A DNA stretch of 64,000 bases. Origin: a virus. Shown here in pieces: positions 8,486-55,822 of this stretch. The position numbers were made by a program, and so were the translations under genes. The stretch is taken from IMG/VR virus record IMGVR_UViG_3300045972_000132, positions 1 through 64,000 of that record, one strand, 5' to 3'. Under the pieces are notes generated by a model. That model made no database searches. It saw only the letters and a program-made list of their open reading frames with translations, and was not told the origin of the DNA. Position 1 is the first letter of the stretch; every line of letters begins with the position of its first letter.

Positions 8486-8508
8486 TGGATTTCTAATCCT
8501 GCTTGCGC

Positions 8509-8514
8509 TATACT
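8509..8514 (+). promoter_or_regulatory. -10 box of the exonuclease gene
   Basis: TATACT ends 7 bases before the ATG at 8522. No ribosome-binding site is visible. The expected transcription start falls on or next to the A of the ATG, so the mRNA is probably leaderless. No strong -35 box was found. Confidence 0.5.
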
Positions 8515-8521
8515 GCCACTC

Positions 8522-34706: not shown

Positions 34707-34728
34707 TACGTTATAAGTGAAGTATAAT
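34707..34728 (+). promoter_or_regulatory. Tube-gene promoter with late-box operator (copy 1)
   Basis: TACGTTA-TAAG-TGAAGTA (34707-34724) is an imperfect copy of the late inverted repeat, running into TATAAT (34723-34728). The right arm is intact and the left arm has two changes. No good -35 box is visible at 17 bp. Confidence 0.6.
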
Positions 34729-34739
34729 GTTGTTCATGG

Positions 34740-34780
34740 GTAAGGGTTGTCAGGTCAGACTAGGATCTGACAGCCCTTAC
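34740..34780 (+). promoter_or_regulatory. Strong hairpin at the 5' end of the tube mRNA
   Basis: A 14-bp stem (34740-34753 with 34767-34780, one G-T pair) with a 13-base loop begins about 5 bases after the expected transcription start. TTTTT and the ribosome site GGAGG follow at once. It could protect the 5' end, attenuate transcription, or stop read-through from upstream. Confidence 0.8.
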
Positions 34781-34796
34781 ATTTTTGGAGGTTAAG

Positions 34797-35408
34797 ATGG
34801 CAAGAAGCGCACGAAGTGTAAAGACGGATTATCTGCATAACATGCGATTCCATGTCAGCTTAGGAACCGACGAAGACCTTTTAAATGCTGCCAATTCAGC
34901 AGCAGGTACTGCCGCTGTTAACGCAAAAGCTGGCTTTAGCTTTGTCGGCCTACCTCAGATGACTGTAGAGAACGTGGAGTATAAGGAAGGAATCTGGGTC
35001 TACTCTAGAAAATACCCAGGAAACCCCTCTTTCAATACAGTTACAATGCAACGCGGAGTGGCAAGAGGCGATTCGTCGTTCTTAAATTGGATTCTAAGAG
35101 TAGCAGAAGGCTCTGGCGAGTACCGTCAAGATATCATAATCAGTCAGCTATCTAGAGATAACAACCTATTCTTACGCAAAGACGGTACTGTTGAATCTAA
35201 TAATCTTTTAGTTAACAACATCATAGATACAACTGTAGGTCGTCAGATTACGCTTCATGAGGCGTTTCCAATTAGCCACAAACTTGGCTCCGACTTAGAT
35301 GCCAAGTCCTCGGACGTTTCTATTATGGAAATTGAATTTGCCTTCGAGTACATCAGTGTTAAGCAAGGAACCATCCCCGACAAGGGAGATCTGGCTCAAC
35401 CTGCTTAA
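34797..35408 (+). CDS. Tail tube protein
   Basis: The protein has 203 residues. It matches the gp19-type tube family: FSFVGLPQMTVENVEYKEG, then SRKYPGNPSFNTVTMQRG and a segment with SFLNWI. The ATG at 34797 is used because an earlier in-frame TTG overlaps the ribosome site GGAGG. Tube subunits stack as hexameric rings around which the sheath contracts. Its own promoter and leader hairpin suggest strong late expression. Confidence 0.93.
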   Translation: MARSARSVKTDYLHNMRFHVSLGTDEDLLNAANSAAGTAAVNAKAGFSFVGLPQMTVENVEYKEGIWVYSRKYPGNPSFNTVTMQRGVARGDSSFLNWILRVAEGSGEYRQDIIISQLSRDNNLFLRKDGTVESNNLLVNNIIDTTVGRQITLHEAFPISHKLGSDLDAKSSDVSIMEIEFAFEYISVKQGTIPDKGDLAQPA

Positions 35409-35430
35409 TTTATAAATATTGGAATGAATC

Positions 35431-36165
35431 GTGGCTAGAAAAACTCTTGGTGATGTTCTACAGAACCATGCTTTCTGGCTTATGGACCTTGCCCCAATTG
35501 GAGCAGGTAGTATTCCCTTATTTGCACCTCTTGGTGGCTTCAGTAGCATAACCGCACCCGAAATCCAAGTAGAGACCGAAGAAATAACAGAGGGAAACTG
35601 GTACTACAAGACCCCTATTGTTAAGCGTGCTCAAGTAAGTCCGATTACGCTGAAGAAGGGGTCTACTTGGCAAAACGCCGATTTCTATCGTTGGATCAAC
35701 AGCGCCATTAGAGGCAATACTGTATTCGAGAGTGGATCCTTCGCTGCGGGGCAGTCCCTTATAGACTCCTTTGGCGGCCCTACCTACCGTCGAAATTTAC
35801 TTCTAATCCAGTTCCTTCGTAGTTCACCTATTAATTTAGGTGATGTTACCAGCGGCGTACAGCAGGCTGCCGCCATTGGGGTTCTTGCCGGGGCCGGAAT
35901 TGCTGCGGGGGCTATTAGTGGCGGTGCAGCATCTGCTGTAGCCTCCGGAGTCGCATCCGGAGTTTCTCTGGGAATTGATAAAACCATAGGCGGCGAACTT
36001 CCTCTTCTAGCTCTTAGGATTCCAGCCAAGGCTTGGGTCCTTTATGAATGCATCCCCACCAGATACAAAGCCTCTGGCGACTTTGATGCCATGTCTGCTA
36101 GTGTCTCTATTCAAGAACTTGAAATCAAACCCTCATATATTGAAGAAATTTCACTATTCAGTTAG
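35431..36165 (+). CDS. Second tail-tube-like protein with a hydrophobic Gly/Ala insert
   Basis: The protein has 244 residues from a GTG. It resembles the tube protein in the first 110 residues (VETEEITEGNWYYKTP, TLKKGSTWQNADFYRWI) and in the C-terminal strand with SVSIQELEI. Residues about 144-181 are an unusual run of Ala, Gly, Val and Ser that could form a membrane-inserting hairpin or a flexible plug. Possible roles are the tube initiator (gp54-like) or a tube tip protein next to the baseplate. Confidence 0.75.
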   Translation: MARKTLGDVLQNHAFWLMDLAPIGAGSIPLFAPLGGFSSITAPEIQVETEEITEGNWYYKTPIVKRAQVSPITLKKGSTWQNADFYRWINSAIRGNTVFESGSFAAGQSLIDSFGGPTYRRNLLLIQFLRSSPINLGDVTSGVQQAAAIGVLAGAGIAAGAISGGAASAVASGVASGVSLGIDKTIGGELPLLALRIPAKAWVLYECIPTRYKASGDFDAMSASVSIQELEIKPSYIEEISLFS

Positions 36166-36174
36166 GATCTCTAG

Positions 36175-36429
36175 ATGATTCCCTTTCCAAATTACATTGA
36201 TGTAGAGGAATTGATTCAATCCAACCAAGCTGTTGAAATGACCCTTTCCGGAAATGTCGGAAACTTCATGGTTCCACTTGGTTCAGAAGTTCTACGTCCC
36301 CCTATTGCTCCTTGGTCGGCAGGTAGAAGTGGTCCTATGGCGAAAATCTATTCAGTCCTTGCTAATCGTGAGCGTAGGAAGCATTTAGGTAAGCAAGCCT
36401 CAAAGCTTTACATGCCTGAGGAAAGCTAA
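36175..36429 (+). CDS. Small hypothetical tail-module protein
   Basis: The protein has 84 residues with a basic C-terminal helix (RERRKHLGKQASKLY). It lies ten bases after the tube-like gene, and its stop overlaps the next ATG (TAATG). No family is recognised. Confidence 0.6.
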   Translation: MIPFPNYIDVEELIQSNQAVEMTLSGNVGNFMVPLGSEVLRPPIAPWSAGRSGPMAKIYSVLANRERRKHLGKQASKLYMPEES

Positions 36430-36695
36430 TGATTCTAGAAAGCTTAATCTCCATTGGAGACCTTCTTCAAGAGGTTAGTAAAAACAATCCGACTACTACT
36501 ACACAAGTTGGAACCTACACCATTAATACCTTCTCCAAGGTAACAATCACTACTGCGGTCAAGGGCAAGACAGCTAAGGTATCTACGACCTTTAAGTTGA
36601 ATCCTCGTACTTCTGACGGGTTTGATCTTGATGGTGCAGATAGTTATCTGAGTAAGAGTCGTAAAGCCAAGGTCCAAGTCGGCGCTGAATTGTAA
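36429..36695 (+). CDS. Small hypothetical tail-module protein
   Basis: The protein has 88 residues, beta-rich, with Thr/Lys-rich strands in the middle and a basic end. Its start is coupled to the previous gene. No family is recognised. It is the last gene before the late-box promoter at 36697. Confidence 0.6.
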   Translation: MILESLISIGDLLQEVSKNNPTTTTQVGTYTINTFSKVTITTAVKGKTAKVSTTFKLNPRTSDGFDLDGADSYLSKSRKAKVQVGAEL

Positions 36696-36696
36696 T

Positions 36697-36725
36697 TTGT
36701 ACTTACTTCACTTTTGAAGTATAAT
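36697..36725 (+). promoter_or_regulatory. Promoter with the best late-box palindrome (copy 2)
   Basis: TTGTAC (36697-36702), a 17-bp spacer and TATAAT (36720-36725) form the promoter. The spacer and first -10 bases hold TACTTCACTTTTGAAGTA (36704-36721), a perfect palindrome of 7-bp arms around CTTT. The ATG at 36732 lies 6 bases after the -10 box, so the transcript is leaderless. It drives the gene for a predicted DNA-binding protein. Confidence 0.75.
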
Positions 36726-36731
36726 GATTGA

Positions 36732-37238
36732 ATGGTAAATTCAATCGAGTGGGAAAAATCGGTTCTAGAGCAGCACTCCGTATGTGCTAACTGCGGTGAT
36801 AGTAAGAATTTAATTGTGCGGCCTCTAGTGGCACCACTAAACGGGGGGCAATCAAGAGCTTCCAACGCCTCGGTTCTCTGCCGTGGCTGCGAGATCAACT
36901 CCTTCTTATCCAATACAGAAACCCAAGAAAAACAGCTAGTGAACTTTTGGCTCTCCGCATCACTCTATGAGTGGCTCAAGACAAACGCCGAGAAGTCTTC
37001 AATGGGTTCCTTGATTCGATATATGATCTCCCGCTACACTGGTTCCCCTAGTGCCTTCGAAGACCTTGCTCTTTGGGTAGATGTCCAATCTGAAGTAAAG
37101 GTAAACATCTGGGTTCCACAGAAGGAATATCTGGAATTCAAGACCCTAATTGAGGAGCGCGGCAGTACTGTCACCGACGCTCTCAAGTCCCTCTTACTAA
37201 TTTTCAAAAACGAACAAACCGAGGCCCACCATGACTAA
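36732..37238 (+). CDS. Zinc-finger protein with two ribbon-helix-helix-like units, putative regulator
   Basis: The protein has 168 residues. C18, C21, C50 and C53 form a CxxC...CxxC site like that of HNH nucleases, but the catalytic His positions appear replaced (IVRPLVAPLNGG), so it is probably a degenerate HNH. Residues 68-102 (VNFWLSASLYEWLK and a SLIRYMISRY helix) and 121-159 (VKVNIWVPQKEYLEFK and a DALKSLLLIF helix) each look like a ribbon-helix-helix unit. Two such units in one chain could bind an inverted repeat. Its own promoter holds the best late-box palindrome. It may be the regulator of the late boxes; a mere remnant of a mobile HNH gene is the alternative. Confidence 0.5.
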   Translation: MVNSIEWEKSVLEQHSVCANCGDSKNLIVRPLVAPLNGGQSRASNASVLCRGCEINSFLSNTETQEKQLVNFWLSASLYEWLKTNAEKSSMGSLIRYMISRYTGSPSAFEDLALWVDVQSEVKVNIWVPQKEYLEFKTLIEERGSTVTDALKSLLLIFKNEQTEAHHD

Positions 37239-38010
37239 TGCAGTTGACATTGCAGTACGAGCAATTGATGACATGAAGTCTTCTACCGGGCTATTTAAAC
37301 TCCCTGGTGGATACTTGGATGAAAAGGGCATCTTACACGATGAGATTCAAATCAGAGAAATGACCGGTGCTGAGGAGGACATCCTAGCTGGTAAGACGGA
37401 TTCTATCACTCTGAAGCTAAACGCTATTATGGCTGGATGTCTAGTGAGGATCGGTTCCATCACAGATCCTGGTGAAATTGCCAAGGTTATCAATCTTTTG
37501 CCCTCAGGGGATCGTATTTATCTTCTAGTTCTGATTCGTATGGTTACACTAGGGGACGACTTTGCCTTCGATGAGAAATGCCCTGAGTGTGGCGACAAGG
37601 CTACCTACAATATTTTTCTAAGCAGCTTGGAAGTTACACCAATGAAGGACAAGAACAAGCGCGAGTTTGAATTCACTGCACCTTCTGGGAAGAAAATCAT
37701 CATAAAGACCCTCCTGGGAAAAGATGAGGGCTTGGCATCTAAATACGGTGAAGAGTATCCAAATGACGTTGTAAGCGCCATCATGCTTGCTAGAGTGGTC
37801 TCAATTGACGGTGTTCCTGCCACCGTAGAGTCCCTTAAAAAATTGGGCTGGAAGGATCGGTCCTTTGCCCGCAAGTCCATTGAATCAATTGATGGAGGGG
37901 TCGAGCTTGGGGTTACGAATGAATGCAAGAAGTGCAATTTTGAATTCACCAAGGACTTACAGATTGGAAGCCAAAGTTTTTTCTTCCCTTCGGAGACCCT
38001 GAACTCCTAG
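37231..38010 (+). CDS. Tail assembly chaperone, short form
   Basis: The protein has 259 residues. It precedes the tape measure gene and ends shortly after a slippery site. A zinc-like site is present (C117, C120, C232, C235). The family resembles the T4 gp26-type baseplate assembly proteins in the same place of other phages. It overlaps the RHH gene by 8 bp. It would bind the tape measure protein during tail assembly together with the frameshifted long form. Confidence 0.75.
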   Translation: MTNAVDIAVRAIDDMKSSTGLFKLPGGYLDEKGILHDEIQIREMTGAEEDILAGKTDSITLKLNAIMAGCLVRIGSITDPGEIAKVINLLPSGDRIYLLVLIRMVTLGDDFAFDEKCPECGDKATYNIFLSSLEVTPMKDKNKREFEFTAPSGKKIIIKTLLGKDEGLASKYGEEYPNDVVSAIMLARVVSIDGVPATVESLKKLGWKDRSFARKSIESIDGGVELGVTNECKKCNFEFTKDLQIGSQSFFFPSETLNS

Positions 38011-38153
38011 AGGCTCAGTATTTTAGCTTCCTTGAGTACTGGCACATAAGTTACACGGAGTTTTTAAATATCCCGTGTAGTCTCCGATTTAGATTGCTAA
38101 CTAGAAAGGACGAACTGGAACGTAGGCGTCAAGAAGCATATAATAGGAAGTAA
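37231..38153 (+). CDS. Tail assembly chaperone, -1 frameshift long form (G-T type)
   Basis: A shift at TTTTTTC (37977-37983) joins the first 251 residues to 56 residues read in the -1 frame, ending at the TAA at 38151-38153, 18 bases before the tape measure ATG. The extension (FGDPELLEAQYFSFLEYWHI then a basic helix RKDELERRRQEAYNRK) has the look of T-domain chaperone tails. The -1 frame is open throughout and fills the otherwise empty stretch 38011-38153. This is the standard layout of the lambda G/GT pair and its myovirus equivalents. Confidence 0.85.
37977..37983 (+). promoter_or_regulatory. Slippery heptamer of the tail assembly chaperone
   Basis: T TTT TTC in zero-frame phase (AGT TTT TTC) is a perfect X XXY YYZ -1 slippage site, 24 bases before the zero-frame TAG. 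No strong downstream hairpin is visible; only a 4-bp GGAG/CTCC pairing is close by. Confidence 0.85.
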
Positions 38154-38171
38154 TTCTAAAATGGAGTCTTG

Positions 38172-40313
38172 ATGGCACTTCCAGGGCTAGGTCTAGCATA
38201 TTTATTCGTTGGTAAGGACGCTGGTCTTGGTAAAGCCCAAGACGAGGCTACCAGCGGTTTCGAAAAACTTGGAAAGTATGTATCTGGGGTTGCCTCCAGA
38301 ATGGGTGAACTTGCGACCAATACTGGTCAGCTAATGACTGCCTTCGAAGCTCGTAATTTTGATGCAAAGAATTCTATTTACGGTGTCTTTGCAGGAATGG
38401 GCCAAACAGCCGCTTCGTCCGCTAAGGCTAGCGATCAACTAATCAGCATGGCTCGCAAACTGAACACGATGGATAAAGTTCCCGAAATGGCGGAAGCCTT
38501 TAGAGAGCTTACTAATATAAAATTCAATGGTGGCGGCGCAAAAGACGTAAACTCTATGGTTGAGCAGCTTACTCGCCTATCTGGGGTCACGGGGGCATCA
38601 ATCACGGGTTTATCTAGGTCACTTGTCGCGCTAACAAACCAGAAAGTATCTGCCGGGGGTATCACAGATATTCTTGATTCCGTTATTAGTATGGGTAAAG
38701 AGTTTGGTACTGGAGACACTGCGGTTAAGAATCTGGAGCGCATAGTCGCCGCTGTTAGAGATGCTACTCAGAAAACCGGATCAGATCCACAAAAGTTTAT
38801 AAAAGAAACCTCCGGTCTTGCATCCATCATCGACACATTTTCCCCCGGTAAAGGAGCAGACGCCGCTATTGGGATTATGAGCAAAACTCAATCAGAATAC
38901 GATACTTTTCAAAAAATGTTTACTGGGGATGCTACTCAATTAGACAAGAGTACTGTATTAGGTGCGCTCTTATTGGGTAGCGCGGACAAAGGATTCGGAC
39001 TATTTAAGAGTTCTCCTCTGAAATGGATTCAAGAGGTAACTAAGGGTCTAAGGGATCTCGGTCCCGCAAGTACTGTATTCAAAAAATTTAAAAAGGATTT
39101 AACTACAAGTGGTCAAGGTGATTTGTGGAGAGTAATTGAAAGTGAATTAGAACAGGCAGGAAATATTGAAAAAGCTATAAAAGCTAGTGAGAACGCAAAA
39201 GGCGCTTCAGGTAAAATGGCTGCGGAACATAGAAACAAGTACAAGCCTGACGAACAGATAGCCTTAAATACGGATTCTGCATGGACTAAATTTAGAGGCA
39301 TGTTTGGTGACAAGCAATCTAAATATGTTAAAGATTCCACCAAGGTATTCAATGATTTTTTTAAAACCCTTCAGGAGGGTGCTAAAACCAATCCAGACTT
39401 AAAAACCTTATCAGATACAGTATCTAATCTAGATAAATTCGGTATGAAGGGATTTTTTGGAGAGTCTACTAGGTCAAAATTTGGTGCCTTGGGTCAGGTT
39501 CTGGATAAATTAGGCCCAAGCTTAGACTCCCTGTCTAAGTATGGTTTCAAACTAGAGAACTTATTCAGCCCATCCGGATTACTCCAAACAGGGTTACAGG
39601 CCCTCGCCGGGGACTTTGCTGCTAACTTTATGGAGTCCGGCAGCTTCTCTAAAGCCATGTCAGCAACCATAGAAGATGTTAAGAAATTCTACGCCAAAGT
39701 TAAATACTATGGCAAGAAGGTCTGGGGCTTCCTAAAAACTTATTGGGACGCTCACGGAGAGGAAATAAAGAAGGAGATCAGCGAAATATGGAAAGAACTC
39801 AGCGAGACCTTCGGACCCACAGTTTCCGGATGGGGAGAATCCTTCAAGAAAACATTGAATGAATTCTGGAAAGAATACAGACCGGCATTCGTAAAACTAG
39901 GTACCGCGATAGGTGAGGGAATTCAAGAGGGTCTAAAAAAGATGCTTCCCAAATGGATGCAAAAGGAAGTAAGTGCCTCTGGTGGTGGTGGGGACATAGT
40001 TCCCCTATTCGATATCAACGATTACCTGAAACGAAAGCACGAATCCGAAGGCCCCCTGCTCCCACCATCACCAACAAAACACGAAGACGCTGCATCTACT
40101 GCGAGTACTATGGCTGCTTTGAAAAAAGCACAGTCGAACCCCATCTTTGACTTTCCTAGTGGTCCGTCGTCCAATGCAAACTCCTCTTCTGTATCTGTAG
40201 TGGATAAATTGGACAAACTAATTGATTCTAATAATGCTCTCGCTAACGCCTTCAAGACTTGGCTTCCACCATCTAAAAGACCCGTGTCCTCCGCAGGATC
40301 TCCGAGTAAATAA
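38172..40313 (+). CDS. Tail tape measure protein
   Basis: The protein has 713 residues. It follows the chaperone pair and precedes baseplate hub genes. It is long and mostly helical with repeated Gly/Ala/Ser/Lys-rich segments, a hydrophobic patch at about 455-490 and a Trp-rich helical segment (510-590, KKVWGFLKTYWDAHG, IWKELSETF). The ATG at 38172 is used, with GGAG 5 bases upstream; an in-frame TTG three bases earlier is less likely. At about 0.15 nm per residue the tail would be near 105 nm. Pro/Ser-rich C-terminal linker follows. Confidence 0.85.
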   Translation: MALPGLGLAYLFVGKDAGLGKAQDEATSGFEKLGKYVSGVASRMGELATNTGQLMTAFEARNFDAKNSIYGVFAGMGQTAASSAKASDQLISMARKLNTMDKVPEMAEAFRELTNIKFNGGGAKDVNSMVEQLTRLSGVTGASITGLSRSLVALTNQKVSAGGITDILDSVISMGKEFGTGDTAVKNLERIVAAVRDATQKTGSDPQKFIKETSGLASIIDTFSPGKGADAAIGIMSKTQSEYDTFQKMFTGDATQLDKSTVLGALLLGSADKGFGLFKSSPLKWIQEVTKGLRDLGPASTVFKKFKKDLTTSGQGDLWRVIESELEQAGNIEKAIKASENAKGASGKMAAEHRNKYKPDEQIALNTDSAWTKFRGMFGDKQSKYVKDSTKVFNDFFKTLQEGAKTNPDLKTLSDTVSNLDKFGMKGFFGESTRSKFGALGQVLDKLGPSLDSLSKYGFKLENLFSPSGLLQTGLQALAGDFAANFMESGSFSKAMSATIEDVKKFYAKVKYYGKKVWGFLKTYWDAHGEEIKKEISEIWKELSETFGPTVSGWGESFKKTLNEFWKEYRPAFVKLGTAIGEGIQEGLKKMLPKWMQKEVSASGGGGDIVPLFDINDYLKRKHESEGPLLPPSPTKHEDAASTASTMAALKKAQSNPIFDFPSGPSSNANSSSVSVVDKLDKLIDSNNALANAFKTWLPPSKRPVSSAGSPSK

Positions 40314-40630
40314 TGTCTACTAATATATCCAAGAACAGCCGTCTTACCTTTTCAGATCTGCTAGACACTGATCAAGTAGAGTTTTGGGATCTACCCAACT
40401 ATCCTAGAATCCCCACTTCAGCCGGGGACATTCTTTACATGGTTCTAGTGAACGATAGACTAGACTTATTAGCCCATAAGTATTATGGTGACTCTAACCT
40501 CTGGTGGGTAATTGCGGTCGCTAACTCACTGGACTGCCTTCCGATTGATCTCGTCGCTGGCAGTCAAATTCTAATCCCTTCCCCACAGATAGCGCTTAAC
40601 AAGGTAATGAAAGATACTGGCACAAACTAA
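40313..40630 (+). CDS. LysM-like baseplate wedge protein, gp53-type
   Basis: The protein has 105 residues. DRLDLLAHKYYGDSNLWWVI and GSQILIPSP form a LysM-like motif as in gp53 and other small baseplate proteins that lie next to the hub. Its ATG overlaps the stop of the tape measure gene (TAATG), and its stop overlaps the next ATG. In T4, gp53 is a wedge protein; here the position next to the hub is also compatible with a hub cap. Confidence 0.7.
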   Translation: MSTNISKNSRLTFSDLLDTDQVEFWDLPNYPRIPTSAGDILYMVLVNDRLDLLAHKYYGDSNLWWVIAVANSLDCLPIDLVAGSQILIPSPQIALNKVMKDTGTN

Positions 40631-42048
40631 TGCCTACTTATGATTTCTTCTCACCCATGATGTCTACCGCAATCGTTGCCAAGGATGGAACGGTAGTTCC
40701 ACTTTGGACTAATACTCATGGAGATAACGTAGAGAATCCAAACGCAGCTAGTATTAAACGGATAGCCGGAATCACAAGTATCCCCTATGTGACTAGCATT
40801 AGAATCACAGTTGGTTTAGCCTGTCTACCGATCATCACTATTACCTTAACACCTCCCTATGAGGATGCAATTAAATTATTAGATAGTGAGTTTCTAGATT
40901 GGAGTTCCTGCGCGATTCGTACCCAAGTCGGATATACAGGCAAAGATACTATTCTATCCCCAGTTTTTACAGGATTCATGCTTCAACCTGCTATTACATT
41001 TGGATCCCAAATCTCCATCACTTTAAACGCTCAAGGTCCCTTTAGTGTTTTTTCTAACGAGAAGAGTGTAATATTTCCCGGAACACATAGTTCTAAGGAA
41101 ATTTTAGAGCAGGCATTGCGGGGAAAGAAGGACCATCCCAGACCAGCAGTAGGCCCTGATAATGTTATTATAAATTTGTCCGTTGATTGGTCTGAGGTAG
41201 ACAAGGATCCTCAAGTCAAAAAGATTTGGGAAGACCCTAAGACGAATACACATTACGCAGACATGACAGATTGGGATATAATTGACCGTCTGTGCAGAGA
41301 ATGCAGATCTTGGTTTATGATAAACAACTCCAAGTTAGTCGTCGTTCCCAATAAAAACTTCGAATCTGAAAAGCCCGCAAGAGTATTCCATGTTTATGGA
41401 GCGCCTAACGGGACCTTTGGGGATATGGAGTACCCTGCATTTCACGTTACTTCAAATTACACAGGAAACCTATTACCGGGGACTCTAGATTCCCTTCGCG
41501 CAGAAGTAATCTCGTATACAGATAAAACTATAACTAGCTACCCGATAACAGCAAAATCCATAAAAGCATCTCTTGTAGGCGATAAGGAAATTACATTCAA
41601 GGACCCTAATATTTCATCCGCCAAGGCTGATCTTCAAATAAAGGATCCTGGTTCTACTCTACCCAACTTTATTAATACTCACGGCAGTAAGCCTGAATCA
41701 TTAAAACTAGTGGAATCCAGACTAGAGCAAATAACTTCAAAACAAGGACCAACCTGCACGGTAGACACCATCGGAATCCCTGATTTATTTCCAGGTGAAA
41801 TAGTAGAACTCAGAGGCTGTAGTCTACGACTCAATGGAGCCTACATAGTTCAGGAGTTTACCCACAACTTCAACTCATCTGGTTTTACAACTTCTTTGAC
41901 CCTAAACACAGCAGCGTTGAAAGTATCTAAAGAGTCCGCCGAACCTACCGCAAATACAAATGATTCGAAGGCGAAGTCTTCAGAAGATACCGGTAAGCCT
42001 AAACCAAAAGGCAGCAAGACTAAGCAAGCTAAACCTTCTACTAAGTAA
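40630..42048 (+). CDS. Baseplate hub protein, gp27/gpD-like
   Basis: The protein has 472 residues. It has the hub-domain pattern: two beta-barrel-like parts around residues 45-140 and 300-430, with segments SIRITVGLACLPIITITLTPP, VFTGFMLQPAITFG and a late INTHG/VRLEQITSKQGP-like part. It sits between the LysM-like gene and the spike gene, as gpD-like hubs do. The hub joins the tube to the spike. The C-terminal 40 residues are Lys/Ser-rich and probably flexible. Confidence 0.75.
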   Translation: MPTYDFFSPMMSTAIVAKDGTVVPLWTNTHGDNVENPNAASIKRIAGITSIPYVTSIRITVGLACLPIITITLTPPYEDAIKLLDSEFLDWSSCAIRTQVGYTGKDTILSPVFTGFMLQPAITFGSQISITLNAQGPFSVFSNEKSVIFPGTHSSKEILEQALRGKKDHPRPAVGPDNVIINLSVDWSEVDKDPQVKKIWEDPKTNTHYADMTDWDIIDRLCRECRSWFMINNSKLVVVPNKNFESEKPARVFHVYGAPNGTFGDMEYPAFHVTSNYTGNLLPGTLDSLRAEVISYTDKTITSYPITAKSIKASLVGDKEITFKDPNISSAKADLQIKDPGSTLPNFINTHGSKPESLKLVESRLEQITSKQGPTCTVDTIGIPDLFPGEIVELRGCSLRLNGAYIVQEFTHNFNSSGFTTSLTLNTAALKVSKESAEPTANTNDSKAKSSEDTGKPKPKGSKTKQAKPSTK

Positions 42049-42056
42049 GAATAATC

Positions 42057-43028
42057 ATGTACCTAGAAATTGAAGACTTACAGCAGCGCGTAAACAGCTT
42101 AGAGAAGAAGTGGCCTGACTTTCTAAGAGACATCAATCACTTTGGACTAGAATGGTTCCGCAAGTACTACGGTCTTTATCGTGCAATTATAAAGTCCAAT
42201 GAAGATCCTGAGAAAAGAGGGCGGGTTCAAATTCTATGTGCAGAAGCGGGACACAAGGATGAAGTTTACCCTAGGGATTGGGTAGATCCTATTCTACCTA
42301 CCGCAGGCCCCTCCAGAGGAAGCTTCGTAGCTCCTCAAGTAGGGGATTGGATCTGGGTAACATTCGCTCAAGGTAATCCCGCTTGGCCGGTGGGATACAT
42401 TGGTTCCTATTTCGGTGGCAAAGAAATGCCCCCTGAGTTTGCCTATACAAACAAAAAACCAGAAACCCAAGGAATTATTACTAGAGGTGGGCATACTCTA
42501 GTAATGTCCGACACCCCCGGTGAAGAAAAGGTAACCCTCTCGTGGCACCAGCCGGATGCATGGCCCACCAATCCCCAAGAGACCCCTGATCGTACCAAGG
42601 GTAAGTCTTCCAGTATGGTATTTAAACCAGACGGGTCAATTGAAACTACTTCATCTGATAAGGCCAAAATTACCCTAGATAGCCCCAATCAAGTCATCAC
42701 AGTTGCCGATTCCAATGGAAATACGGTGACTCTAGACAAGAACGGCATTACAGTGAAGGATAAGAGCGGTAATAACATTAAAATCATAGGTGGGGATGTT
42801 ACTGTCCAAATGTCAGGGGACTTCAATGTCACTGATGGCAACAACTCCAATCTAAAGACCCAGAATGTCAATTTAGGACTTTCTCCTACATATTCTGCGG
42901 TTCTTGGAGAGTTATTCATGACTCTCTTCAACGCACATGTTCATCCGCACCCCTTGGGGCCTACCGCAATTACTCCAACCCAAATGACTCCCGCCGCCTT
43001 ATCCAGTACTGTAAAATTATCTAAATAA
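42057..43028 (+). CDS. Baseplate spike protein, gp5/gpV-like
   Basis: The protein has 323 residues. Residues 40-135 form an OB-fold domain (YGLYRAIIKSNEDPEKRGRV, VGDWIWVTFAQGNPAWPVGYIG). Residues about 140-275 form repeated short strands with Asp/Gly/Asn turns, a triple-stranded beta-helix (ITVADSNGNTVTLDKNGITV type). There is a late HVHPHP motif near residue 293, typical of the metal-binding tip of spike proteins. There is no lysozyme domain, unlike T4 gp5. It pierces the outer membrane at contraction. Confidence 0.88.
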   Translation: MYLEIEDLQQRVNSLEKKWPDFLRDINHFGLEWFRKYYGLYRAIIKSNEDPEKRGRVQILCAEAGHKDEVYPRDWVDPILPTAGPSRGSFVAPQVGDWIWVTFAQGNPAWPVGYIGSYFGGKEMPPEFAYTNKKPETQGIITRGGHTLVMSDTPGEEKVTLSWHQPDAWPTNPQETPDRTKGKSSSMVFKPDGSIETTSSDKAKITLDSPNQVITVADSNGNTVTLDKNGITVKDKSGNNIKIIGGDVTVQMSGDFNVTDGNNSNLKTQNVNLGLSPTYSAVLGELFMTLFNAHVHPHPLGPTAITPTQMTPAALSSTVKLSK

Positions 43029-43032
43029 AGGT

Positions 43033-43084
43033 TACGTCAAATTTGAAGTAAACCCCTGCATTATAGCCATATTTGTGCTATAAC
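43033..43084 (+). promoter_or_regulatory. Late box (copy 3) and extended -10 promoter of the wedge genes
   Basis: TACGTCA-AATT-TGAAGTA (43033-43050) is a late inverted repeat with one change in the left arm. An extended -10 TGCTATAAC lies 26 bases downstream (43076-43084). In this copy the box is upstream of the -10 element rather than touching it, which could mean activation here and repression elsewhere. Confidence 0.6.
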
Positions 43085-43101
43085 CAATGATGAGGTTACG
43101 A

Positions 43102-43476
43102 ATGGACTATTCATTTAGGGGTCTTGGCTTTCCCTTTTCAATTAAAGAAGGTGCTTTTCCAGCACCTACTCAGGATGCCGACCTGATTGCACAGTCGATC
43201 ATGCAGATCATCGGTGTGACTCCCACCGAACGAGTCTTCGATCCCAACTACGGCTGCAACGTTATGGACATGGTATTTGAAAACAACGACTCTCTCCTAC
43301 AAGAAATTGCAAAAATAAATATCCAGAACGCAATCTCCAGATACGAACCTCGTGCGATTCTGCAAGACATTACCTTCTCTAAAAACTCTGATGGGAATGC
43401 GCTATACGTAAACATTATATTTACCGTAAAATATACAGGGGAAACAGGCACTGTTTCTCAGAAGCTTGGAGCCTAA
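43102..43476 (+). CDS. Baseplate wedge protein, gp25-like
   Basis: The protein has 124 residues. The N-terminus MDYSFRGLGFPFSI and the body with DLIAQSIMQIIGVTPTERVF, FDPNYGC and a late strand match gp25-like wedge proteins. The ATG at 43102 is chosen because GAGG lies 6 bases upstream; two earlier ATGs at 43087 and 43090 lie next to the -10 box. Gp25 is the most conserved wedge component and starts sheath assembly on the baseplate. Confidence 0.88.
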   Translation: MDYSFRGLGFPFSIKEGAFPAPTQDADLIAQSIMQIIGVTPTERVFDPNYGCNVMDMVFENNDSLLQEIAKINIQNAISRYEPRAILQDITFSKNSDGNALYVNIIFTVKYTGETGTVSQKLGA

Positions 43477-45669: not shown

Positions 45670-45855
45670 ATGAGAGCACCTAAGATTAAAATAACCATGG
45701 AAGGTAAAGTGATTCGCACTGGCGAGATAATTGAGTGGACTGCGTGGGGCGAACCCGATTATTGGGGTAGATTTCAGAAAAAGTTCCACCCCTCAGATCT
45801 ACACGACATAAAAGTTAAAGGTGGCCCTGTGAGAAGGGCCGCAATGGAGGATTAA
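45670..45855 (+). CDS. Small basic hypothetical protein
   Basis: The protein has 61 residues, basic, with WTAWGEPDYWGRF in the middle. It begins right after the gp6-like stop, and its own stop overlaps the next ATG (TAATG). It has no recognised family; a baseplate accessory role is inferred from position. Confidence 0.55.
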   Translation: MRAPKIKITMEGKVIRTGEIIEWTAWGEPDYWGRFQKKFHPSDLHDIKVKGGPVRRAAMED

Positions 45856-46217
45856 TGCTTCTACCCACCAACGGTATCTCCATCGCACAAGGAGAAGACC
45901 AGACGCTTGAAATCACGGTAACTGATTCTGCTGGAAATACAGAAGACCTTACAGGAGCCAGGTTAGTCCTAAATGTCAAAGCAGATCCTAGTGATAAGAC
46001 TCCAGTTATTTTAAAGACCACAGACAACGTTCAGCAAGCACAGATCATCAAGGCCCTAGCAGGTTACGTTAGGTTCTACATAACTTCAGCAGATACGAGC
46101 AAACTAGAACCTGCTCGATATTTCTATGATGTCTGGGTCATCCTTTCATCAGGCAAAAGATATCCGGTAATCAAAACTTCCGTATTCCAAGTAACAGGTT
46201 CTACTTTTAGATTTTAG
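45855..46217 (+). CDS. Upper-baseplate/fibre-adaptor-like protein
   Basis: The protein has 120 residues. The pattern of strands (QTLEITVTDSAGNTEDLTGA, VLNVKADPSDKTPVIL, a late LEPARYFYDVWVILSSGK) resembles the Ig-like N-terminal domain of BppU-type adaptors that dock receptor-binding proteins to the baseplate. It directly precedes the spike genes, so an adaptor role is plausible. Confidence 0.6.
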   Translation: MLLPTNGISIAQGEDQTLEITVTDSAGNTEDLTGARLVLNVKADPSDKTPVILKTTDNVQQAQIIKALAGYVRFYITSADTSKLEPARYFYDVWVILSSGKRYPVIKTSVFQVTGSTFRF

Positions 46218-46225
46218 AGGATCAA

Positions 46226-49192: not shown

Positions 49193-49196
49193 ACTT

Positions 49197-51767
49197 ATGA
49201 CACTTATTGCACCTAGAACACCGGGACCGTTCAATCCAACCACTGCTGCCGCTGCATTGGCAGCGGGCGTAAAATGGCAATACCCAAGCGGTATGACTTC
49301 AAAATGGGTCAACGTTCTCGACTTCGGAGCCGATCCTACCGGTACTGTTGACTCGTTAGCTGCTTTTACTGCTGCAATAGCTGCCGTGGCTGCTACAGGT
49401 TCAGGGGGAGCACCTCATCAGGCTGGATATGCTACCGGTGAACCTTCTGCACCATTTGGTGTCTACAGCGTTCCGACTCTATATATTCCAGCAGGCTCTT
49501 ACATCTTTAGTGGTCCTTTCACAATTTCATCATACATGAGTGTAGTTGGAGATAATTGTTTTCTAATCCCTAAGGATTACAACACCGACTGCATGTTGAT
49601 TGACCAAACTAATCGCAAAAATATTTATGGAATCAAGTTCTTGGTTGGAAAAAATCAGATCAAAGTACTGGCGCATATGGACAACTTCTCCATCCGCCGC
49701 TGTTCATTTATTCACCCCGGATACTGTGGCTTAAATAACTCTGAGTGGTTTGGTGCCCCAGTTACCACAGATTCGCCTGGAAATCCGCCTGCAACTGCTA
49801 AGTTCAACGCAACCTTTAACGGAACCAACTTGACCGTAACCTCTATGATTTCGGGGACGATTCAAGTTCCAGGCGTCGGATTGAATGGTATGTCGGTTTA
49901 CGCAGCGTGGGATCCTTATGATTACGCAGCTAGTCAGGCAGGAGTAACGAACTTCAACTTCGTTTCCCAGACCTCCGGTACCCCCGGTGGTGCTGGAGTT
50001 TATGTAATCAACGCATCCCAACCCGTTGTAGGCCCATTCCATATTCAGGCATCTGTTCCGGCTGTAGGTACCCATGAGCTATGGATGGATGAGTGCGAGT
50101 TCCTTGGTCAGTACGGAGATACTTCAGGCAGCATGATGAACTGCTTCGGCAGCGATGTTACCTATTTGAACAATTGTCGAATTCACACATCGAAAGCAAT
50201 TCCGTTTATCTTAAACCACGGGGAATTTCGTATAACAAACAGCTTCTTCGTACAATCTGGTGGCGTTCAATCATGGTTCAAGGTTACGGATGGATTTCTA
50301 TCTATCAACAACTGCAAGATTACAGGCGAAACAGGTGCGGGGGCTATGTTTGAATATCACTCTTCCACAGGGGGTGATGGTGCCTATGCAATGGGGCCGG
50401 GGGTGGGGGGCATTCAGATCGTAGACTCTACAGTAGTATCAGCCCTCTTGAAGTTTTATAATCTTCCCACTTATCCTGTTAAAATCAAAGGCACCACTGG
50501 ATCCTATTACGGATTTTGGTTCGATACAGGTATTAATAATTTGCAACTTCAATCAGCGGATCTTGCTAGCTGGGATATAGATTGGGCTTATTCAAGCGCC
50601 ATTCCCCCTCTTGCGGCCCCCGCTGTAGTGGGCAATAATCTAGCCCTAGCAACTTCGGTATTCCATAGGGTTCCACACAAATCCGACAAACATTCCTACC
50701 CACTATCTACGGACTTTCTTGGTTATGTTAGACCGGGTGGCTACCCTCAGGATGCCACAGTTATCACAGCCGCGCAGGGTGGTGGAGGTGGTGCAGCAGG
50801 ATATACTTCAGTATATGCGACTGATTCCCGTTCAGGAACTTTTCTAATCAAGAACACTTCTACTACTGACGCATACGTGGCTACCTCCTTCTATGGAACG
50901 TCTATTCCACTTTCCATTGGTAAGGGGCAGTATACGCTGTCTCTACCCATCGAAATAGAAACCGATCACACTCTAATGTTCGGTATGTCCTACGGAGCAG
51001 TAAAACAATTCTACACAATCTCGAAGGGTCGGCATGTTCTAAATCTTCCATTTACGGTTGATTTCGACGTAATCCCCGGTGTTCCAGGTACGACTGTAGC
51101 AGTTGGAGATATGGTTGGCTTCAATAGCAATGTCACCAACAATAACTTCGTTACTGTAAACATGGTAACTACTGCCGGAACTATTGGCGATTGGGATACT
51201 AAATCATGGTTTGGTCCCGCACTTACCGGATCGTTTGATTTTCCCTTCCAGTGGACTGACGGCCACACTGCACAGCTTGTAAGCGTCGATGCTCACACTC
51301 TAGGGCTAAATTGCTATCGTATCCCTAGCGGCTGTAAGTTTAATTGGGGAGACTTTAGAATATTCCGAGGATATTACGATAGAGAAGAATGGGAGGTAAT
51401 ATCACAAGGAACTAGTATACCTGTAAAGGGCGTATGGCATGTCGGAGATAAGGTTGTCAATACTCTACCTACATCGGGGGGGCCAAGTGGTTGGGTATGT
51501 ACTACCTCTGGTATCCTAGCCCCTGCGTGGACTCAAAATACTGCCTACTCAGTCGGTGATTTCGTATCCGCAAACAGCGTAATTTGGTCCTGCATCAAAG
51601 CTGGAACCTCATTAGGATCTGGAACCGGCCCAACCAACTCGACTCAGATTTGGCCTACTGCAAATTATCAACAACATCCATACTTTAATGATAATGGTGT
51701 GTATTGGGTATATATTGCTGCTACAGGTACCCCGGCAGTCTTCTCACCCTATGGGCTAATAGGATAA
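49197..51767 (+). CDS. Second tail spike, paralogue with an inserted domain
   Basis: The protein has 856 residues. It aligns with the previous spike from FGADPTGTVDS (near 43) to the end: both have ISR/FSNC-type HPG strands, EFLGQ or DFLGQ, and the C-terminal GVW..VGDKV / PAWT.NT / YGLIG series. It has a short different N-terminus (FNPTTAAAALAAG) like that of the glycine-rich protein downstream. Residues about 183-290 are an extra beta-rich piece absent from the first spike. The pair likely broadens receptor range. Confidence 0.82.
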   Translation: MTLIAPRTPGPFNPTTAAAALAAGVKWQYPSGMTSKWVNVLDFGADPTGTVDSLAAFTAAIAAVAATGSGGAPHQAGYATGEPSAPFGVYSVPTLYIPAGSYIFSGPFTISSYMSVVGDNCFLIPKDYNTDCMLIDQTNRKNIYGIKFLVGKNQIKVLAHMDNFSIRRCSFIHPGYCGLNNSEWFGAPVTTDSPGNPPATAKFNATFNGTNLTVTSMISGTIQVPGVGLNGMSVYAAWDPYDYAASQAGVTNFNFVSQTSGTPGGAGVYVINASQPVVGPFHIQASVPAVGTHELWMDECEFLGQYGDTSGSMMNCFGSDVTYLNNCRIHTSKAIPFILNHGEFRITNSFFVQSGGVQSWFKVTDGFLSINNCKITGETGAGAMFEYHSSTGGDGAYAMGPGVGGIQIVDSTVVSALLKFYNLPTYPVKIKGTTGSYYGFWFDTGINNLQLQSADLASWDIDWAYSSAIPPLAAPAVVGNNLALATSVFHRVPHKSDKHSYPLSTDFLGYVRPGGYPQDATVITAAQGGGGGAAGYTSVYATDSRSGTFLIKNTSTTDAYVATSFYGTSIPLSIGKGQYTLSLPIEIETDHTLMFGMSYGAVKQFYTISKGRHVLNLPFTVDFDVIPGVPGTTVAVGDMVGFNSNVTNNNFVTVNMVTTAGTIGDWDTKSWFGPALTGSFDFPFQWTDGHTAQLVSVDAHTLGLNCYRIPSGCKFNWGDFRIFRGYYDREEWEVISQGTSIPVKGVWHVGDKVVNTLPTSGGPSGWVCTTSGILAPAWTQNTAYSVGDFVSANSVIWSCIKAGTSLGSGTGPTNSTQIWPTANYQQHPYFNDNGVYWVYIAATGTPAVFSPYGLIG

Positions 51768-51771
51768 TAAA

Positions 51772-53991
51772 ATGACACTAAAGTTCACAACATCCTCTTA
51801 CGATCCGACAGCCGCTGCTGCCGACCTTACGAAGGGAATCCTCTGGGAGCAAGAGTTTCCTATTGCCACAAAGGGTGACATGCGGGTAGGTACTGCCGCA
51901 AATAAAACAGTGAATCTAACAGTAGGTTCAGATGGTAAAATACTGGTAGCTGATAGTACCCAAACGGGAGGTATGCGTTGGGACACACTAGCGGCATTAG
52001 GGATCGCTACCACCGCAGCCACCGTTGCATTAAATCCCGGTTCTGCTCAGACCGGGGCCACAGTCCAACTTACTGGTGCATCCAACATCAGCACCCTCGA
52101 CTTAACATCTCTCGGAACCGGCGCTGTTCTTCGTCTTCACGGATCTAATACCGCATCTTGGATGATCCTTGGTGACGGTGCCATTGGTACGAATGCTAAC
52201 ACCCCTAATTCACCAGCATTCCAAGGTACAGGTAATGGGCTTGGCGCTGGCGGAGTTTTCTATGGTGGAACTAGCGGGTTAGGTGTTCGTGGTCAAGGAT
52301 ATGGCACGAACCAGGGTGTACTAGGTGTGGGTGGCGATGGTGCCGGTGTAAGTGGTGTTGGCGTTCACGGGCAAGGTGGAAATACTAGTCACGGTGTTAT
52401 TGGAATAGGTGGAGCTACTTCTGGACATGGTGTAGTTGGAACAGCAGGCGGTTCAGGCATCGGAGGAGTATTTACTGGAACAGTTACTAACCCTGGTGTC
52501 CAGGCAACTGGCGGTTCGTCTGGTGGAGTTGGTCTATATGCCGCAGGCGGCTCGGGTGGATCTGGATCAGCCTACGGTGCGGATATTGTGGGTGGTGCCT
52601 TGGGTCACGGACTTAGGGCAACCGCAACTGGCAACGGATACTATGGTGGTTTATTCTATGGCGGGCCTGGAACTGGCGGCGGTATCCAAGCTACTGGTGG
52701 CGGAACAGGCTCAGGTGGACAGTTCGTTGGTGGTGCTACAAATGGCGCAGGCGCAACTGGAACCGGTATCGGCGCGGGGTCGGGTCTTGTTGGAATATCA
52801 GGCAACACAGGCGTTGGACACGGCCTCCAAGGTATTGCTATGGATATTGGGCAAGGCGCAGACCTTTATGGCGGTCTAAATGGTGGATATGGCGCAGCCT
52901 CCACTGCGCGTGGGGGTAATTCAAACGGGTTTGTCGGCACTGGACATGGTGGTGGTGCTGGTGTTTATGGTATTGGCGGGGCCAATGGTCACGGTATTCA
53001 AGGTACAGGTCAGGGCACCGGCATGGGCGGTAACTTCGGTGGCGGCGCAGGTGTTTCAGGTAATGAGCATGGTATCTATGCCGTAGGTGGTTCTAATGCT
53101 GGATATGGCGCGTTTGCTCAGTCAAATACCAACTATAGTGCAGTTTATGGCCTATGCACAGGAGCAAGCACTGGGTCTGGTGTTCAAGGTATTAAGTGGA
53201 ATGGTGGCGGTGGCTGGGCTGGATATTTCCAAGCCACAACTGGAGCAGATGGTGGTATTAGATCAGAGACACAGGGCACATCAGGCATTGCTGGGTTTTT
53301 CTTTCAGTCAAATGCTTCTACTGGAACCGGGCAGGCTATTTATGCACAAGCTGACGGTGCAGGCCCAGGAATTGAAGTTTACGGTGGCACAACTGGCGTT
53401 GCCTCATACGGCATCTACGCCCACGGTAGATCCAACACCCCCGTAATCCTTGCACTCAATGCAAACGCAGGGGGTAACGCATGTGGTATTCGTGCCATCG
53501 GTGGCGGCGCGGCAGTAGGTGCCCAATTCCAAGGTAACTCCGTTCGTGGGCAGGTTTTGTTTGAGCCGTCCACTACTACACCAACGACACCGCTCGATGG
53601 TGAACTCTGGGTAGAAAATATCGGCGCTGGCGTTATGAGTTTCTGTGCTCACCTTAATAGCCAGAATAAGGTGCTTAGTCATGCATTTTGGACTCTAACA
53701 TACTCAGCCAGTATCACGCCTATTGCAGGACCGGATACTCAAAGCATCGTGCCAAATAACGGCACTGCATTTACAATCAATGCTCCTGCTCTTGCATTCT
53801 CTGGTGCAATTTTAAATATTCAAATTAAGAACACCTTTGGTACACTAGGTGCTCTTACGTTTGCAGCAGCTTATAAGACAGGTGCAGCTTGGACGCAACC
53901 CGCAAACGGATTCTCGCGTACCATTACCTTTATGTACAACGGTACCGACTGGATTGAAATCAGTAGAACAGCCGCTGACGTTTCCAATTAA
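51772..53991 (+). CDS. Glycine-rich repeat fibre/adhesin
   Basis: The protein has 739 residues. The N-terminus has YDPTAAAADLTKGILWE, shared with the spike before it, and probably attaches to the same adaptor. Residues about 140-590 are dense Gly repeats of a GVxGxGG/GxGGxFxG type, suggesting a long beta-solenoid or polyglycine-helix shaft as in phage adhesins. A C-terminal globular part follows (LDGELWVENIGAG, YNGTDWIEISR). Repeat number may vary by recombination. Receptor binding is inferred. Confidence 0.7.
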   Translation: MTLKFTTSSYDPTAAAADLTKGILWEQEFPIATKGDMRVGTAANKTVNLTVGSDGKILVADSTQTGGMRWDTLAALGIATTAATVALNPGSAQTGATVQLTGASNISTLDLTSLGTGAVLRLHGSNTASWMILGDGAIGTNANTPNSPAFQGTGNGLGAGGVFYGGTSGLGVRGQGYGTNQGVLGVGGDGAGVSGVGVHGQGGNTSHGVIGIGGATSGHGVVGTAGGSGIGGVFTGTVTNPGVQATGGSSGGVGLYAAGGSGGSGSAYGADIVGGALGHGLRATATGNGYYGGLFYGGPGTGGGIQATGGGTGSGGQFVGGATNGAGATGTGIGAGSGLVGISGNTGVGHGLQGIAMDIGQGADLYGGLNGGYGAASTARGGNSNGFVGTGHGGGAGVYGIGGANGHGIQGTGQGTGMGGNFGGGAGVSGNEHGIYAVGGSNAGYGAFAQSNTNYSAVYGLCTGASTGSGVQGIKWNGGGGWAGYFQATTGADGGIRSETQGTSGIAGFFFQSNASTGTGQAIYAQADGAGPGIEVYGGTTGVASYGIYAHGRSNTPVILALNANAGGNACGIRAIGGGAAVGAQFQGNSVRGQVLFEPSTTTPTTPLDGELWVENIGAGVMSFCAHLNSQNKVLSHAFWTLTYSASITPIAGPDTQSIVPNNGTAFTINAPALAFSGAILNIQIKNTFGTLGALTFAAAYKTGAAWTQPANGFSRTITFMYNGTDWIEISRTAADVSN

Positions 53992-53996
53992 TACTA

Positions 53997-54025
53997 GTGA
54001 CTTTACTTCACTTTTGATGTATACT
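53997..54025 (+). promoter_or_regulatory. Promoter with late box (copy 4)
   Basis: GTGACT (53997-54002), a 17-bp spacer and TATACT (54020-54025). The spacer holds TACTTCACTTTTGATGTA (54004-54021), one change from the best box. It drives the first copy of the duplicated cassette. Confidence 0.72.
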
Positions 54026-54050
54026 TTTCAAGTCAGGGGTTATTTAAAAA

Positions 54051-55112
54051 ATGGCATATACACTTGAAAAAACTTGGCAATACGCTCCCAATATTCCGCC
54101 TAGCGATATCTCATCTGTTACAGCACTACAGAAAAGCTATTTATGGTTTATTAAGGCAGCCTTAACGGGTCAGACTGGTGGCCTCTCGGCTGGTCTCTGG
54201 ACTTGTTATTATTCATGTGATGGTACTACAGCCGGAACTGCTGGGGACGGAATAGACCGGTGGACGGCATCCTACGACGCCACCAAGATTGTAAATGCTA
54301 ATGCGGGAAGTGCCCACTCTTGGATGGTGCTTCGTAGCCCCGCCAACTTTGTCAGAACCGGTGTCTACCTTTACATGATCATCGATGTCGTAGCCAGCAC
54401 CAACGCACTGACACTGACATTCTGTGTGGGTGCGCCCACGGCTGGGAGCACTACAGCCGCACCTACACAAGGTGCATCGGCTTGGCACCACACCGGGATC
54501 CAGTGGTCCGACGGTACACTTACCCAACATTTTCATTGCTCTCTCTCTTCAGAGGGTGCGTTCTTCCTGTTCAACAGTAAGGACACTACCTACTTTGTAA
54601 TGGGTGGACTAATTGTGTCCAAGCTCGCAGATACGCGCACGCTCGACACCGTACCAGTAGTCTCGTTCATCAGTTACGGGTCCTCATCCCCTGGTGCGTT
54701 CGGTATCCCCTCCGAGACGTACAGTACAATGGGCATCCAAGCCTATCGCCTTGCTGGAGTGTCCGGCTTTGGGTGGGGTAGTAGCTATGGTGGAGGCGAG
54801 CAGTCTGTTTGTGTTCTGTTATACAACATTCTAGACACGTTTACAGGTGGCCGACAACCGCTTGCGACCAACCTTTCTTACGCCCAGTTCTACGATTCGT
54901 TTGAGACTACATCGGGTACTGATTTGCCTGTGTATCTATTCTGCCCTGCCGGGCAGGCTGGAGGATGGACTATCAAAGGCCGCGTACCTGACCTTCGTAT
55001 TTGCAGCTCAAATGGTATCAATGTCGGGTCTGTTGCTCCTGGGCCTGCTGGACCTGTTACTACAATTTCAATGGGTGCAACTTGGTTCCCGACCGGTGCT
55101 GCGCTGGTATAG
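54051..55112 (+). CDS. Tail-tip/adhesin-like protein, cassette copy 1, gene A
   Basis: The protein has 353 residues, beta-rich, with TWQYAPNIPP at the N-terminus, WFIKAALTG, a HSWMVLRSP segment and a PGPAGPV collagen-like turn near the C-terminus. It is a paralogue of the gene at 55826, and each is followed by a related small gene. The region is richer in GC and CTG codons than the neighbours, which suggests transfer. It lies among receptor-binding genes. The function is inferred. Confidence 0.65.
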   Translation: MAYTLEKTWQYAPNIPPSDISSVTALQKSYLWFIKAALTGQTGGLSAGLWTCYYSCDGTTAGTAGDGIDRWTASYDATKIVNANAGSAHSWMVLRSPANFVRTGVYLYMIIDVVASTNALTLTFCVGAPTAGSTTAAPTQGASAWHHTGIQWSDGTLTQHFHCSLSSEGAFFLFNSKDTTYFVMGGLIVSKLADTRTLDTVPVVSFISYGSSSPGAFGIPSETYSTMGIQAYRLAGVSGFGWGSSYGGGEQSVCVLLYNILDTFTGGRQPLATNLSYAQFYDSFETTSGTDLPVYLFCPAGQAGGWTIKGRVPDLRICSSNGINVGSVAPGPAGPVTTISMGATWFPTGAALV

Positions 55113-55115
55113 CCG

Positions 55116-55556
55116 ATGGCCTACGTCAATCACAACCACGCAGAGGCCGCACCTACTGATGCCCAAGTACAGTCACGCTTCCCGTACTACCGCCAATTCA
55201 TTTTGGGCCGCGTAGGGCTTGGCAGTTTCAGCGGGGCTGTTTCTTATACTCCTCCCATACCCACTATTACAAATATATTACCTCCATCCCCTACCATTCT
55301 ACCTCCTAATTCTTCTATTCAGTTTGACGCCATTGCCCTTGGGGTTCTCAAGAAGACTATCATTATGGTTCAGATGGGTACCTCATACGAAGTCATCTTC
55401 GACGGAGACTCCTTCGCTCCTAATTATGTTGGTAGTGTTAAATCCACGATTTCCAATGGCTTTAGATTCACGGTCGCCCGAATAGGTGGTTGGCTATCTA
55501 CCTCTATATCTTTAAACATCTTTGCAATCGATGGATTTGCCCAAATAGCCCCGTAG
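55116..55556 (+). CDS. Small beta-rich protein, cassette copy 1, gene B
   Basis: The protein has 146 residues with a Pro-rich linker (PSPTILPP) and a C-terminal Ig-like domain (VIFDGDSFAPNYVGS, ISLNIFAIDGFAQIAP). It is paralogous to the protein at 56986, which shares the FDG...F and AID.YGQ/GFAQ landmarks. It lies 3 bases after gene A, so the two are one unit. Confidence 0.62.
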   Translation: MAYVNHNHAEAAPTDAQVQSRFPYYRQFILGRVGLGSFSGAVSYTPPIPTITNILPPSPTILPPNSSIQFDAIALGVLKKTIIMVQMGTSYEVIFDGDSFAPNYVGSVKSTISNGFRFTVARIGGWLSTSISLNIFAIDGFAQIAP

Positions 55557-55562
55557 GGAGAG

Positions 55563-55591
55563 GTGACTCTACTTCACTTTTGATGTATAGT
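55563..55591 (+). promoter_or_regulatory. Promoter with late box (copy 5)
   Basis: GTGACT (55563-55568), a 17-bp spacer and TATAGT (55586-55591). The spacer holds TACTTCACTTTTGATGTA (55570-55587), identical to copy 4. It drives the Cys-rich gene and the second cassette. The shared sequence supports duplication of promoter and genes together. Confidence 0.72.
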
Positions 55592-55627: not shown

Positions 55628-55822
55628 ATGGCACTCAGCGCGAAATGCAGTGTATGTGGTAAAGACTTTGAGCAAACAAATCCAGGTGATGGATTGGTTT
55701 TCTTCGTTCTTAGGGATCAGCCAAACCCAGCCACACAATGGGAGCTACCTAGAACGTTTGCCTGCTATACTTGTATCCCTAATCTAAAAACGGCCCTTTT
55801 GGCGTTACTACCTAAGGCTTAA
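55628..55822 (+). CDS. Small zinc-ribbon-like protein
   Basis: The protein has 64 residues with CSVCGKDF at 8-15 and CYTC near 46-49, a probable zinc site. AAAAGGAG precedes the ATG. It lies between the two cassette copies and starts the second unit. No function is recognised. Confidence 0.6.
   Translation: MALSAKCSVCGKDFEQTNPGDGLVFFVLRDQPNPATQWELPRTFACYTCIPNLKTALLALLPKA

Follow-up and report, generated by a model that had tools for sequence, protein, structure and literature searches.

An 18-bp dyad before tail genes of an uncultured phage as the putative operator of a predicted RHH repressor

Five copies of an 18-bp dyad, TACTTCA-N4-TGAAGTA, lie between genes in an uncultured phage, and we consider it likely that they are the operators of an autoregulatory RHH repressor encoded from position 36732, whose site came, in this lineage, to stand at additional tail operons. 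The window, meaning the whole 64,000-bp stretch analysed here, is bases 1-64000 of a viral record with a full size of 99,407 bp (99.4 kb); it carries T4-like head and tail gene types (a gp23-like capsid, gp19-like tubes, a gp25-like wedge and a sheath) and belongs, judged by sequence, to a bacterial-type tailed phage. Operator-controlled tail operons with a phage regulator are little described in such phages, and a literature search for tail operons under operator control by a phage-encoded regulator in tailed phages of this type found none. Since protein and site are both defined and the clade offers natural operator variants, specificity and the growth of a regulon become directly testable.

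Five boxes and the promoters around them

The five copies reported by the sequence-only reading, at 34707, 36704, 43033, 54004 and 55570, were confirmed on the + strand with 0-2 mismatches (none at 36704, one each at 43033, 54004 and 55570, two at 34707), and all of them fall between genes in a window of which 3.2% is intergenic; in the whole 99,407-bp record they are the only intergenic sites of this 0-2-mismatch type. The pattern is commoner than in shuffled sequence, with four sites of at most one mismatch in the window where a dinucleotide shuffle gives 0.025 on average (such sites arose in 5 of 200 shuffles), and it becomes far less distinctive at three or fewer mismatches, where eight sites stand against 3.3 expected. 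We also ran the matrix scan proposed at that stage over the whole record and its relatives, using a symmetrised matrix built from 13 relatives' boxes before homologs of the 36732 gene, window excluded, and the five window boxes came out as the top five of 99.4 kb, at 23.1, 22.1, 21.5, 21.5 and 14.5 bits, followed by a coding site at 12.8 bits. Peaks in shuffled sequence reach 12-18 bits; the box at 34707, which scores at this chance level, is a weak member that rests on its position and its -10, and the box at 43033 is a weak member too, lacking a good adjoining -10. An identical 20-mer is common to 54004 and 55570, with 36704 one base off, and because this near-identical stretch includes the four inter-arm bases, which symmetry does not demand, these three look like one promoter that has been copied.

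Table 1. Boxes, promoter elements and the genes behind them.
Feature	Position	Strand	Basis or detail
Box 1, TACGTTATAAGTGAAGTA, weak, tail tube operon	34707..34724	+	pattern and matrix scans
-10 TATAAT, tube promoter	34723..34728	+	sequence
Tail tube gene, gp19-like, PF06841	34797..35408	+	probable start ATG 34797, GGAGG upstream
-35-like TTGTAC, 17 bp from -10, regulator promoter	36697..36702	+	sequence
Box 2, perfect dyad TACTTCACTTTTGAAGTA, regulator gene promoter	36704..36721	+	pattern and matrix scans, relatives
-10 TATAAT, regulator promoter	36720..36725	+	sequence
Regulator gene, 168 aa	36732..37238	+	HNH-like residues 4-64, RHH1 67-104, RHH2 122-167
Box 3, TACGTCAAATTTGAAGTA, upstream of gp25-like wedge gene, without good adjoining -10	43033..43050	+	
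Baseplate wedge gene, gp25-like	43087..43476	+	PF04965
Box 4, TACTTCACTTTTGATGTA, GTGACT -35, TATACT -10	54004..54021	+	pattern and matrix scans
353-aa gene behind box 4, without family match	54051..55112	+	
Box 5, TACTTCACTTTTGATGTA, GTGACT -35, TATAGT -10	55570..55587	+	pattern and matrix scans
64-aa gene behind box 5, first of unit extending into 1266-aa tail gene at 57464	55628..55822	+	

The promoter anatomy described earlier stands as well: four boxes adjoin a -10 (TATAAT, TATAAT, TATACT and TATAGT) at a 17-bp spacer, and three have a -35-like hexamer, TTGTAC at 36704 and GTGACT at 54004 and 55570. The window thus holds sigma70-type promoters, with -35 and -10 elements set 17 bp apart and a good -10 at four copies, the exception being 43033, where the adjoining hexamer is TAAACC and TGCTATAAC, some 29 bp downstream, makes a better extended -10. 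Across 28 promoters from the window and relatives, agreement with TTGAC is highest at a 17-bp spacer from the right-arm TA (2.71 of 5 vs 0.6-1.7 elsewhere); the -10 hexamer is good in the window only, the relatives keeping little beyond TA, and the C of the left-arm TAC, directly after the -35, is kept in 25 of 27 boxes. In 12 of the 28 the box is followed after 11-12 nt by a possible start codon, which fits leaderless mRNA, and the transcript of the 36732 gene is probably leaderless, with a predicted start at or next to its ATG. Hexamers resembling a -10 also stand about 6-7 nt before an ATG at 8486-8522 and at record position 69052-69097, which suggests that more transcripts may be leaderless. 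Downstream of box 1, the leader of the tube gene contains a very stable hairpin at 34740-34780 with a short T run (-30.7 kcal/mol for 34730-34800, z -6.1), which could be terminator-, attenuator- or stability-like, and that gene is itself the first of two paralogous gp19-like tube genes in tandem (34797-35408 and 35431-36165), paired in the relatives too.

The predicted regulator protein and the box in related phages

The AlphaFold model of the 36732 protein (mean pLDDT 89) has two strand-helix-helix units, E67-74/H76-85/H91-104 and E122-129/H130-142/H147-167, so that the predicted RHH unit occurs twice in one chain. Among 14 homologs, Pfam finds HNH in 12, ParG in 5 and RHH_5 in 3, and the zinc-site cysteines C18, C21, C50 and C53 are kept in all 14; the catalytic histidines of HNH endonucleases are not kept, the first position being R, C, H, I or K (H in 2 of 14) and the last E, R, N, D or A, and an active HNH nuclease was rejected on that ground. 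The protein is accordingly modelled as a predicted dead HNH zinc finger fused to two RHH units. PDB sequence matches, with weak E-values, are to HNH enzymes for the first part and to AvtR and ParG for the second, and fold matches, again with weak E-values, are to an F-plasmid relaxosome chain and VirC2. When 50,697 isolate phage records were searched by tblastn, the window protein had no match and a homolog matched in its HNH part only; the HNH-RHH-RHH fusion was not found in these records.

No isolate phage gave a close DNA match to the window, and the exact box 20-mer occurs in no further contig of IMG/VR, so conservation was sought via proteins. Single-protein scans with the sheath and a gp6-like wedge yielded no relatives; a capsid alignment succeeded, showing capsid relatives to be abundant in IMG/VR at 39-71% identity. 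The relatives, which range from 45 to 64% GC, were gathered by capsid and sheath, their tail regions were fetched and the window genes were mapped onto them; a scan of genome contigs for a host returned a single distant capsid match, in a Neisseriaceae MAG. The sheath protein itself (31344-33962, 872 aa) has full-length kin in metagenomes only, and among the isolate-phage matches listed about its C-terminal third alone is covered.

A homolog of the 36732 gene adjoins the hub gene (37231 in the window) in most related uncultured myophages, with an 18-bp dyad just before the homolog; a consensus scan of 38 records at two or fewer mismatches was mostly noise until it was combined with this position. 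Of 25 test loci, fetched later with a regulator alignment and none of them among the training loci, 21 have a site at p<0.05 and 18 one at p<=0.01 by the 13-box matrix relative to shuffled sequence, these loci being kin of the training loci and several near-duplicates, so that a combined p-value would be overstated; at two loci (L157 and L178) the best match lies outside the -35 register. A box stands at the regulator gene in 18 of 21 records vs 0-4 records at each of 15 other tail genes, a comparison whose matrix includes the training boxes. In the closest relative (G001) the second-best site lies before the gp25 gene, in the same place as the window's 43033, another (G019) has a weaker box before that gene, and two (G023 and G006) have one box before or near the 45855 unit; two more (G013 and G026) have the 36732 homolog without a recognisable box, and in G012 and G007 the box is weak. 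Conservation of the whole regulon is rejected, as the relatives' other tail genes are mostly without a box.

Because the box is kept at the regulator gene and found in 0-4 records elsewhere, the autoregulatory site seems ancestral and the wider regulon changeable; the gene's own promoter has a box in most relatives, and autoregulation, which may operate here, is common though not universal among RHH regulators. The earlier proposal of one operator at tube, regulator, wedge and receptor-binding genes is supported with a correction, the regulator site being widely kept and the others mostly lineage-specific, with the gp25 site shared by G001.

A proposed mechanism and its competitors

We infer binding by the 36732 protein with two chains per box, repression over activation, and spread by duplication. 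Two chains would probably bind one box, the RHH1 and RHH2 strands of each pairing into a ribbon that enters the major groove at one 7-bp arm, with the arm centres 11 bp apart, or one helical turn. Two dimers on one DNA face have been described for RelB (PMC2812701). An operator of the kind claimed by the sequence-only reading, read by the 36732 product, is the best-supported interpretation, given the box kept before the 36732 homolog in most relatives, the kept -35 register and the predicted RHH units; the simple dimer of that reading is the less likely reader, two single-chain RHH pairs being the more likely one. Within its sigma70-type promoter the box takes up the 17-bp spacer and overlaps the first two -10 bases, so that a bound protein should exclude RNA polymerase, which favours repression: the regulator would hold down its own mRNA, probably a leaderless one, by negative autoregulation and would, in this lineage, put the same brake on the tube and wedge operons and on two at the tail end, which the operator would have reached by promoter copying.

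That same placement bears on whether the 36732 protein could instead be an activator, binding the spacer dyad or an upstream site and turning the tail genes on late, which we regard as unlikely. The window -35 hexamers are weak (TTGTAC, GTGACT, TAGTAG), the -10s of the relatives are poor, the box at 43033 closely precedes a possible extended -10 promoter, and RHH proteins can activate; one of them, AmrZ, is activator as well as repressor (PMC3325190). The dyad nevertheless overlies the spacer and reaches the -10, and the window -10s are so near consensus that their promoters should fire unaided. Promoters of MerR type have a spacer of 19-20 bp that holds the dyad, and the normal 17 bp found here disfavours an activator of that kind.

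The protein and its box also vary together at strand residue 73, a predicted DNA contact: W goes mostly with TGA in the right arm, L with AGA in 8 of 9 cases (the remaining one GGA) and F with TGCAGTA in 4 of 5 (the exception, L118, has TGATATA). We have downgraded this covariation because the tree gives about two clade-level events of joint change, and it is suggestive, with shared descent a possible explanation. The joint change in two clades does weigh against a reading we think quite improbable, namely that some other factor, from host or phage, recognises the box and has the 36732 gene as just one of several targets: the 36732 protein is a putative reader, and the record encodes further DNA-binding candidates (HTH_36/DnaD-like and S24-peptidase-like proteins), but the product of the boxed gene is itself predicted to bind DNA, and a box conserved at one gene across phages of 45-64% GC is unlikely to reflect a host factor that they share.

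Were the conserved sequence the core promoter of a phage late RNA polymerase or sigma factor, its symmetry accidental, the fixed register of -35 and TA and the coding-strand orientation of every copy would be expected; yet the left-arm C, for which a core promoter has no need, is kept in those 25 of 27 boxes, the arms are symmetrical across relatives, head-gene promoters are without the box and most relatives hold just one or two copies, all of which makes this very improbable. An RNA hairpin acting in processing or attenuation, for which a 7-bp stem and 4-base loop could form in transcripts reading through from upstream, is scarcely credible and was rejected, since arm pairing is 80.6% vs 79.2% in shuffled arms, the pair counts equal independence and the arms vary without compensatory changes.

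Returning to repression by the 36732 protein, a broader and doubtful history can be sketched in which an HNH nuclease of homing type, its active site lost, was fused to a pair of RHH units and came to serve a large clade of uncultured myophages as dedicated repressor of the tail operons, its operators multiplying by promoter copying; replicating genomes might then dilute the repressor, so that tail synthesis would follow genome number.

Comparison with known regulators, and other genes of the record

The closest functional parallel is SvtR, a viral RHH repressor of the archaeal virus SIRV1 that binds at its own promoter as well as at the promoter of a structural gene for the tail fibre, its site at gp30 lying about 80 nt from the promoter elements (PMC5569661); it differs in having one RHH per chain, archaeal promoters and no HNH part. 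AvtR of Acidianus filamentous virus 6 (PDB 4hv0) has two RHH units per chain, as predicted here, and is the only PDB sequence match to span both, at a marginal E of 0.003, but it comes from an archaeal virus, has a different binding site (ATnnTnnTAnnACnTT) and carries no further domain, whereas the 36732 protein has its HNH-like N-terminal domain. Convergence with SvtR and AvtR would point to more than one origin for RHH brakes on tail genes. Two further RHH repressors, P22 Arc and plasmid CopG, have operators within the promoter, and they differ in having one RHH per chain, in not being linked to tail operons and in giving no sequence match here. The F-plasmid relaxosome accessory protein and VirC2 share the tandem RHH in one chain, but they are conjugation proteins; the relaxosome chain 9f11_G, which we take to be probably TraY, matches in fold with a TM of 0.63 by target length over 93 columns, at a Foldseek E of 0.6 and low identity, and VirC2 matches more weakly. 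T4 I-TevI, a protein of endonuclease type that also has a zinc finger, represses itself, its operator overlapping the late promoter of its own gene (PMC2988022); it differs as a still active, intron-encoded GIY-YIG enzyme without RHH, known to regulate itself only.

Outside the boxed operons, the record's small genes include Cpn10 (GroES), a C5 cytosine methylase, KhpA/B KH and S24-peptidase domains, and a DnaD-like protein is encoded at 3-518. On the - strand, 5527-7952 holds a tRNA nucleotidyltransferase beside a second nucleotidyltransferase gene, and the long tail-end gene at 61297-64005 has many Gly-coding GGTGG repeats in its 3' half.
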